Assembly: GCA_903927465.1 (NCBI GenBank)
Contig: CAIYMY010000056.1
Coordinates: forward strand, 1-40,462
Reading direction: 5' to 3'
Length of the DNA stretch: 40,462 nt
DNA from: an uncultured Rhodospirillales bacterium
Lineage (GTDB): Bacteria; Pseudomonadota; Alphaproteobacteria; Acetobacterales; Acetobacteraceae
Part shown: in pieces, positions 15,545 through 17,291 of the stretch
Numbering within the stretch: the first letter of the stretch is position 1
How the letters are laid out: each line of letters opens with the position of its first letter
Notes under the pieces: model-generated
Told to the model about the DNA's origin: nothing
Databases searched by the model: none
The model's input: only the letters and a program-made list of their open reading frames with translations
Position numbers and translations under genes: made by a program

Positions 15545-17077
15545 ATGCAGCTTGCCGTCTGGACCTATGAAGGGCCGCCGCATGTGGGAGCGATGCGTAT
15601 CGCCACCGCGATGCAGGGTGTGCATTACGTACTGCACGCACCGCAGGGCGATACCTATGCCGATTTGCTTTTCACCATGATCGAAAGGCGGGAAAAGCGC
15701 CCGCCCGTGACATGGACAACTTTCCAGGCGCGCGACTTGGGCGGCGACACCGCCGAGCTGTTCATGGAAGCAGCGCGCGATGCCTACGCCCGCTTCAAGC
15801 CGGAAGCCATGCTGGTGGGCGCTTCCTGCACGGCAGAGCTGATCCAGGATGATCCAGGTGGGTTGGCGAAGACGCTCGGCCTGCCGGTGCCCGTGGTGCC
15901 GCTTGAATTGCCTGCATATCAGCGCAAGGAAAATTGGGGCGCGGCGGAGACCTTCTATCGCCTGGTGCGCGCCTTCGCTGGGTCAGCACAAACCCGCACG
16001 CCACGTGAGCCGGCACGCGCGCCGCGCTGCAATATTCTGGGCCCGACTGCCCTTGGCTTTCGCCATCGCGATGACGTGGCCGAAATCACCAAGCTGCTCA
16101 CCAGCATGGGCATTGAGGTTGTGGTGACCGCGCCCATGGGCGCCACACCCACAGATCTGACGCGGCTGCGGGACGCAGATTTCAATGTCGTGCTTTACCC
16201 TGAAATCGCGCAGGTCACGGCAGGCTTTCTGCAGCGCCATCTGGGCCAGCCCTTCACGCGCACCGTGCCTATTGGCGTTGGTGCAACAAGGGATTTCATG
16301 AATGAGGTCGCAGAGCTTGCGGGCCTGCCGCCGCCTTCGACCGATGGTGGGGGAACGCTACGCCTGCCTTGGTATGCGCGTTCGGTCGATTCGAATTACC
16401 TGACTGGCAAGCGTGTTTTCATCTTTGGTGATGCCGCCCACGCCATCGCTGCTGCGCGCATTGCTCATGAAGAATTGGGCTTCGCGGTGGTGGGTCTTGG
16501 TACCTATAGCCGCGAATTCGGCCGCGAAATTCGTGCTGCCGCTGAAAAATATGGCGTTGAGGCGCTGATTTCAGACGATTATCTGGAGGTCGAGGAAAGC
16601 ATCGCCGCGCTGCAGCCCGAATTGGTGCTCGGTACGCAGATGGAACGCCATATTGCCAAGAAGCTTGGCGTTCCCTGCGCCGTGATTTCCGCACCGGTGC
16701 ATGTGCAGGATTACCCCGCGCGCTATGCGCCGCAAATGGGTTTTGAGGGTGCGAATGTCATCTTCGATACTTGGGTGCATCCGCTGATGATGGGGCTTGA
16801 AGAACATCTGCTCGGCATGTTCCGCGAGGATTTCGAATTCCGCGATGGTGCGGCGCCGTCCCATCTGGGCCACGCCCCGCAGCCGGAGGCGCCCGCCGCA
16901 CCCATTATCGCAGGCCCTGCAAGCTGGGAGCATGATGCTGAGGCGGAATTGCGTAAGATTCCCTTTTTCGTGCGTGGCAAGGCGCGCCGGAATACCGAAC
17001 GCTTTGCTGAAGAACGCGGCATTGCCGTGATCACCGTTGAGACGATTTACGATGCCAAAGCCCATTTCTCGCGCTGA
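15545..17077 (+). CDS. bchB: Light-independent protochlorophyllide reductase subunit B
   Basis: A 510-residue nitrogenase-like subunit that binds protochlorophyllide with BchN. Asp36 (QGDTYADLL), the unusual fourth ligand of the BchNB cluster, and Cys95 (GASCTAEL) are both in place. Near the C-terminus, [19 protein letters not shown] is the conserved light-independent-reductase tail domain. It appears complete. Its last 26 bases overlap the start codon of the bchH remnant, indicating that the bchB-bchH junction is undisturbed. Confidence 0.97.
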
Positions 17078-17291
17078 GGCATCAACACCACGGATCGTCA
17101 TTGTGACGATGGATGAGGAAATGCTCGACCACATGACGTATTCGGACAGAACGGCCTCAGCCAACATCGCCCATGGCCTGATCGAGGCACAGGCGCGTCG
17201 CTACTGGAGCCAGAGCACGGATGCGCTGCGTCGCGCCGGTGATGAGCTTGAAGATCGTATCAAAGGTATCAGTGAAGGAGCCGCGGCATGA
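17052..17291 (+). pseudogene. bchH: bchH remnant: large internal in-frame deletion
   Basis: A 79-codon frame lies exactly where bchH, the ~1200-residue magnesium chelatase subunit, is expected between bchB and bchL. The first ~20 residues read as the BchH N-terminus ([20 protein letters not shown]). The remaining ~60 read as the extreme C-terminus: EEMLDHM, TASANIAHGLIEAQARRYW, then LRRAGDELEDRIKGI, equivalent to the RGYW ... E-EDKIEGI ending of ChlH/BchH. The joint falls near TMD|EEM (about 17115-17120). The porphyrin-binding body is absent. Start and stop overlaps with bchB and bchL are intact and there is no frameshift. The product could not support chelation. Confidence 0.82.

Follow-up and report, generated by a model that had tools for sequence, protein, structure and literature searches.

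In congeners with native genes, the photosynthesis operon runs in the order bchN-B-H-L-M-lhaA (tblastn). In the window, meaning the whole 40,462-nucleotide stretch of DNA analyzed here, the place of bchH between bchB and bchL is taken by a frame of 79 codons. This raises two questions: does the organism still possess the porphyrin subunit of its magnesium chelatase, and why has so short a remnant stayed open, in frame, and overlapped with both of its neighbors? We consider it probable that foreign bchH and bchM genes replaced the native ones from elsewhere in the genome, and that the native genes then decayed to in-frame stubs whose frame and overlaps were held for translational coupling.

Two genes reduced to their ends

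The two ends of BchH can be recognized separately in the 79-codon frame. In a profile search, residues 19-75 correspond to positions 1184-1243 of the 1245 in the BchH family NF009942 (42.5 bits, E 1.7e-11), and the cut-off of that family for a full-length BchH (1166 bits) is not reached. Residues 1-23 share 78-87% identity with the native BchH N-terminus among the congeners listed; for residues 17-79, identity to the native C-terminus is 63-70% across the 14 congener matches that come closest. Since native bchH encodes 1199-1211 amino acids in the 10 congeners measured, some 1,120-1,130 codons have gone. BchH (magnesium chelatase subunit H; NF009942, TIGR02025) is thus the source of the last ~57 residues of the stub, and about 93% of the protein is absent. 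The first-pass annotation had described the first ~20 and last ~60 residues of BchH fused by an in-frame internal deletion, with about 1,100 codons missing and both neighbor overlaps retained, and the profile match, the alignment to both BchH termini and the overlap measurements all agree with it.

The junction itself carries a short microhomology (Table 1). In G027, a congener with native bchH, TGGAT is found at both ends of the gene, in ACGATGGAT followed by AGC near the start and in GTGCTGGAT followed by AAG near the end, and at the join the stub reads ACGATGGAT followed by GAG. The deletion therefore appears to span two TGGAT repeats lying in the same codon phase. The stub also contains a second in-frame deletion, of 9 bp, which is absent from the first-pass annotation. 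Where the native gene has SPSADVLDALRR (G027), the stub has SQSTDALRR, with short GATG repeats on either side. This smaller deletion is common to the bchH stubs of all three genomes in which they occur: that of the window (G000) and those of two sister species (G008 and G022).

A second remnant, also absent from the first-pass annotation, lies two genes downstream of the bchH stub, just beyond bchL. In the nine near congeners compared, bchL is followed by a bchM of 233 amino acids, and in the window by 38 codons instead. In the profile search the 38-residue peptide is without any NCBIfam match, and its assignment to bchM rests on its position and on DNA ends that match the start and the finish of the native gene.

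The genes around the stubs had been described as intact. This holds for bchI, bchD, and bchL, each of which exceeds its NCBIfam cut-off. The full-length bchB exceeds the cut-off of TIGR01278 and falls short of those of two sister models, NF002790 and NF002789. The overlaps between successive frames in the window are 26 nt (bchB/bchH stub), 4 nt (bchH stub/bchL), 1 nt (bchL/bchM stub), and 4 nt (bchM stub/lhaA). The same four values are found between the native genes in 9 of the 10 congeners measured, with G004 differing solely at bchL/bchM, and the two on the bchH side match the native gene in 10 of 10. These 10 belong to a set of 19 genomes, among the 27 native ones of the genus, in which native bchH and bchL are adjacent (13 by tblastn, 6 by coordinates). 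Stop and start codons overlap at the stub junctions as they do in coupled gene pairs, with ATGA at bchH stub/bchL and at bchM stub/lhaA, and TGATG at bchL/bchM stub. The GAAGGAG in the last codons of the bchH stub, which we take to be a Shine-Dalgarno-like site for bchL, is likewise present in the native bchH of near congeners. No tandem repeats were found in the window.

Table 1. Features of the photosynthesis operon in the window, with positions counted from the first nucleotide of the window.
Feature	Position	Strand	Description
bchB, full length	15545..17077	+	TIGR01278 620 bits, cut-off 490; last 26 nt within the bchH stub
bchH stub, 79 codons	17052..17291	+	~21 N-terminal codons joined in frame to the BchH C-terminal end
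Large bchH deletion junction	17110..17114	+	5-bp microhomology TGGAT; coordinates counted by hand
Second deletion inside the bchH stub	~17219..17226	+	9 bp, in frame; hand-counted coordinates, approximate site
GAAGGAG upstream of bchL	17274..17280	+	In the last codons of the bchH stub; hand-counted
bchL, complete	17288..18199	+	TIGR01281 447 bits, cut-off 345; 4-nt ATGA overlap with the stub stop
bchM stub, 38 codons	18199..18315	+	N-terminal ~31 codons joined in frame to the last ~7
bchM deletion junction	18290..18295	+	6-bp microhomology ATGCGC; hand-counted; native ends compared with the stub
lhaA (putative assembly factor)	18312..19775	+	tblastn synteny with congeners; open frame in three genomes
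bchI (exact start not resolved)	25499..26602	+	TIGR02030 500 bits, cut-off 467
bchD (exact start not resolved)	26496..28439	+	NF009943 746 bits, cut-off 571

Spread of the stubs and selection on them

Thirty of the 35 genus genomes carry bchH in some form, and the 79-codon stub is confined to three of them (G000, G008, and G022), being absent from the other 27. In a tree of BchB, BchL, and LhaA that covers 13 of the 27 native genomes of the genus, the three form a single clade (support 100/100) nested among species with native bchH, and the stub has a single origin there. A search of 5.8 billion database proteins yields 40 relatives of the stub from 42 candidates; since it accepts proteins of 0.55 to 1.75 times the query length, full BchH and very short remnants could not show up in it. 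Exactly 79 amino acids are found in 31 of the 40, at 58-96% identity to the stub of the window. Seven begin later and retain the end, an in-frame loss has removed 29 residues from P0039, and P0036 stops after residue 50. Their sources name these proteins “hypothetical protein” or “magnesium chelatase subunit H,” so that such stubs are easily overlooked.

Substitutions among the three genomes show little sign that the stubs still act as proteins. By the Nei-Gojobori method, dN/dS for the three species pairs is 1.11, 1.07, and 0.57 in the bchH stub and 0.44, 1.03, and 1.23 in the bchM stub, as against 0.018-0.076 for bchB, bchL, and lhaA in the same species. The stubs have only 79 and 38 codons, and two of the six values (0.57 and 0.44) are well below 1 on small counts, which counts against our explanation. 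Changes at codon positions 1 and 2 relative to position 3 set the stubs apart from their neighbors (G000-G008 and G000-G022), with Fisher p from 2e-5 to 1e-7 for the bchH stub and from 5e-4 to 5e-3 for the bchM stub, and in the stubs themselves they fit the two thirds expected under neutrality (p 0.41 to 1.0).

A dN/dS near 1, unlike that of the neighbors, is what a pseudogene should show, and it is seen in four of the six stub pairs. The stubs might then be plain decaying pseudogenes, in frame by luck and too recent to have gathered stops or frameshifts, with no selection on frame or coupling. We regard this as rather unlikely, although several observations speak for it. The absence of stops in the three genomes located by position, where about 1.65 would be expected, is within chance (P 0.19). 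P0036 apparently ends at residue 50 and P0039 is without 29 internal codons; unless the contig of P0036 ends there, its early stop means that the relay is dispensable somewhere. With its own Shine-Dalgarno-like sequence, bchL may also be able to do without coupling. On the other side, the broken frame expected of a pseudogene is not seen, as both stub frames are open in 3 of 3 genomes. All four deletions are in frame (three in the stubs of the window and one in P0039), for which the chance is 1/81 if they are independent, and the one in P0039 may be favored by the way in which that protein was found. Five database stubs with only 58-66% identity to that of the window (P0029, P0030, P0032, P0033, and P0034) are still exactly 79 amino acids long, and the four overlaps are all unchanged. 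Finally, about 5.2 stops are expected in 32 full-length stubs (that of the window included) beside their 125 amino-acid changes, and a single candidate is seen, itself from a wider set (P about 0.035); this count is biased because the database holds open frames only.

A working micro-protein is much less credible: the ends of BchH would have had to yield a 79-residue product with a role of its own, such as regulating BchD or BchI. The fixed length of 31 of the 40 relatives and the positions that are nearly invariant across 41 proteins would fit such a role. However, a dN/dS of 0.57-1.11 is far from the 0.018-0.076 of the neighbors, and the motif LNPTA (LNPMA in G004), constant in ten native ends, has become LDRTA or SDRTA in most stubs. 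The bchM stub shows the same behavior, and the conservation of the last codons is otherwise explained because the ribosome site of bchL is there. Stubs kept for their frame and overlaps, rather than for their peptides, remain our preferred reading.

A full bchH-bchM pair on another contig

Taken by itself, the window has a stub only, and the first-pass annotation had concluded that a chelatase with no porphyrin subunit is encoded here, while advising that a full bchH be looked for in the rest of the genome. That search (3.78 Mb in 220 contigs, 98.5% complete) finds one on contig C74. At C74:533-4159 a single frame with no internal stop encodes a BchH of 1208 amino acids. Its two matching pieces together score 2034.3 bits against NF009942 (cut-off 1166), and this frame is the one place in the genome where the CobN/BchH Pfam family is found. 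A full bchM follows directly at C74:4179-4880 (233 amino acids; 248 bits against the TIGR02021 cut-off of 158.9). The resident copy is thus lost in the very lineage that holds the replacement: the C74-type bchH occurs in 3 of 3 stub genomes, complete in G000, partial in G008, where it is cut by a contig end (678 residues), and gapped in G022 (L048, G022:C130), where 68 bp and ~53 bp are missing relative to C74 in a contig that has no N. These gaps are either assembly faults or real breaks, and if they are real there is no intact bchH in G022. Because of the gaps and the contig end, an intact acquired bchH is established in G000 alone among the three. The full pair on C74 and the related bchH of both sister species rule out the loss of the chelatase subunit, and with it of bacteriochlorophyll synthesis, which we now hold to be highly improbable.

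With 220 contigs the assembly is fragmented, and the stub might be an artefact or the product of a mis-joined contig, but the probability of this is negligible and it is ruled out because G008, G022, and separately assembled database proteins have the same stub ends, with divergence between them. C74 also holds ordinary genes, among them the one for MetG, which shares 98% identity with its counterparts in G008 and G022 and 96-97% with those of the next nine congeners listed. This identity with the sister stub species and the congeners makes C74 part of this genome and rules it out as a contaminant.

The full bchH and bchM of C74 look foreign. BchH is 76-78% and BchM 61-63% identical to the proteins of near congeners, compared with 91-97% for bchB and bchL and 91-94% for lhaA. 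Among the matches listed, the nearest named BchH proteins are those of a plasmid of Roseomonas sp. CCTCC AB2023176 (86%) and of Paracraurococcus (82-85%), and database proteins without a species name reach 99% and 87%. That plasmid is not among the PLSDB matches, the best of which is 62.8% identical. BchM is nearest to nameless database proteins and then to Paracraurococcus and Roseicella (83-85%), again among the matches listed. In trees, both proteins group with these sequences, apart from the native clade. The BchH tree was made by a quick method with no bootstrap, from 46 of the 120 listed protein matches and the loci; the long rows L100 and L121 meet in it, and it leaves out the partial BchH of G008 and the gapped one of G022. 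The BchM tree takes 45 of the 120 listed matches and the loci, after three fragments among the 48 picked were dropped for length. Its native clade (nat_G012 and 11 more tree rows) stands on a long stem of 0.58 changes per column. The groupings put to the AU test were chosen with the trees already in view. The test rejects BchM within the native clade (p-AU 0.030, at a cost of 60 log units); it does not reject BchH there (p-AU 0.098, lnL 46 lower), which counts against a foreign origin. The G+C content of the pair is 65.4%, versus 60.7% for the stretch of C74 analyzed after it.

The palindrome TGTCAATTTTAATTGACG (L003:331-348, reverse strand) precedes the C74 bchH by about 200 nt and is retained with changes in G022 and G008. 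The consensus for PpsR is TGTN12ACA, and this palindrome departs from it at one fixed base. A similar sequence at position 6026 of the window, TGTCAATTTTGATTGACA, matches the consensus exactly. Exact matches are no commoner in the window than by chance (4 seen, 4.7 expected), and the palindrome is therefore just a hint.

The locus of the acquired bchH appears to have undergone rearrangement once it was in place. A hydrolase to the right of bchM is common to G000 and G022; it has a 90% match in G022 only, those of ten other genomes (1e-60) being 57-63% identical, and no clean empty acquisition site can therefore be defined. To the left of the acquired bchH, past ~240 nt, the DNA of G008 (L047) and that of G022 (L048) do not match each other. 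Among the 59 genomes searched, that of the window included, no congener was found to hold native and acquired bchH together as an in-between stage: the 27 native genus genomes, in each of which bchH appears as two pieces of one gene, are without a second full copy.

Proposed history and meaning of the stubs

The replacement of native bchH and bchM can be pictured as follows; the donor, the order of events, the activity of the acquired copies, and selection for coupling are inferred. The ancestor of a small Roseomonas-like clade would have gained a bchH-bchM pair at a distant site, from a Paracraurococcus- or Roseomonas-plasmid-like donor. The acquired pair would then have taken over Mg-protoporphyrin synthesis, making the native bchH and bchM of the bchFNBHLM-lhaA operon redundant, and deletion between short direct repeats may have left no more than the two ends of each. 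We propose that only frame-keeping cuts survived because the genes overlap by 26, 4, 1, and 4 nt. Ribosomes coming from bchB would traverse the bchH stub and reinitiate at bchL, and those coming from bchL would traverse the bchM stub and reinitiate at lhaA. The stub peptides would be inert, the stubs serving as short translated relays in which a stop or a frameshift would uncouple bchL from bchB, or lhaA from bchL. Such a relay role is likely, with modest support from the counts.

Several known systems resemble parts of this history. In Dinoroseobacter shibae, bchH has been replaced by a foreign one within an otherwise congruent photosynthesis gene cluster, and 34 of 1452 genes in Rhodobacteraceae were judged to be replaced (PMC6052148). 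A resident bchH would likewise have been displaced by a foreign one here; unlike the D. shibae case as described in that source, bchH and bchM are found together, the locus is distant, and native in-frame stubs remain. Plasmids of the Roseobacter group carry photosynthesis gene clusters including bchM, bchL, and bchH (PMC6739100), and the nearest named BchH among the matches listed is also plasmid-borne, in Roseomonas. Whole clusters move in the cases presented there, whereas C74 shows the bchH-bchM pair only. As for coupling, of 14 tested gene pairs with ATGA or TGATG overlaps, 13 showed strict translational coupling (PMC6728339), and in two E. coli pairs the final 15 nt of the upstream gene were enough (PMC10666635). 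The stub junctions share their overlap types with these termination-reinitiation pairs; the pairs described in the two sources are working genes studied with reporters, whereas here the upstream frames look devoid of protein function. In the open-licence PMC literature, the matches listed for a truncated or replaced bchH and for decay to coupling stubs include no account of such an arrangement.

Two relay-candidate stubs stand in one operon and come from separate deletions of bchH and bchM. They could represent a distinct mode of decay, in which the start, stop, frame, and overlaps of a replaced gene stay under selection and leave a “ribosome relay” ORF without protein function; we put this forward tentatively, as a possibility somewhat short of an even chance. 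Whether a genome has bchH may be misjudged when only its photosynthesis cluster is consulted. What looked like a loss of bacteriochlorophyll synthesis becomes a natural experiment on which parts of an operonic gene outlast the need for its protein, and if the coupling reading is true, evolution has recorded translational coupling directly in the stubs.
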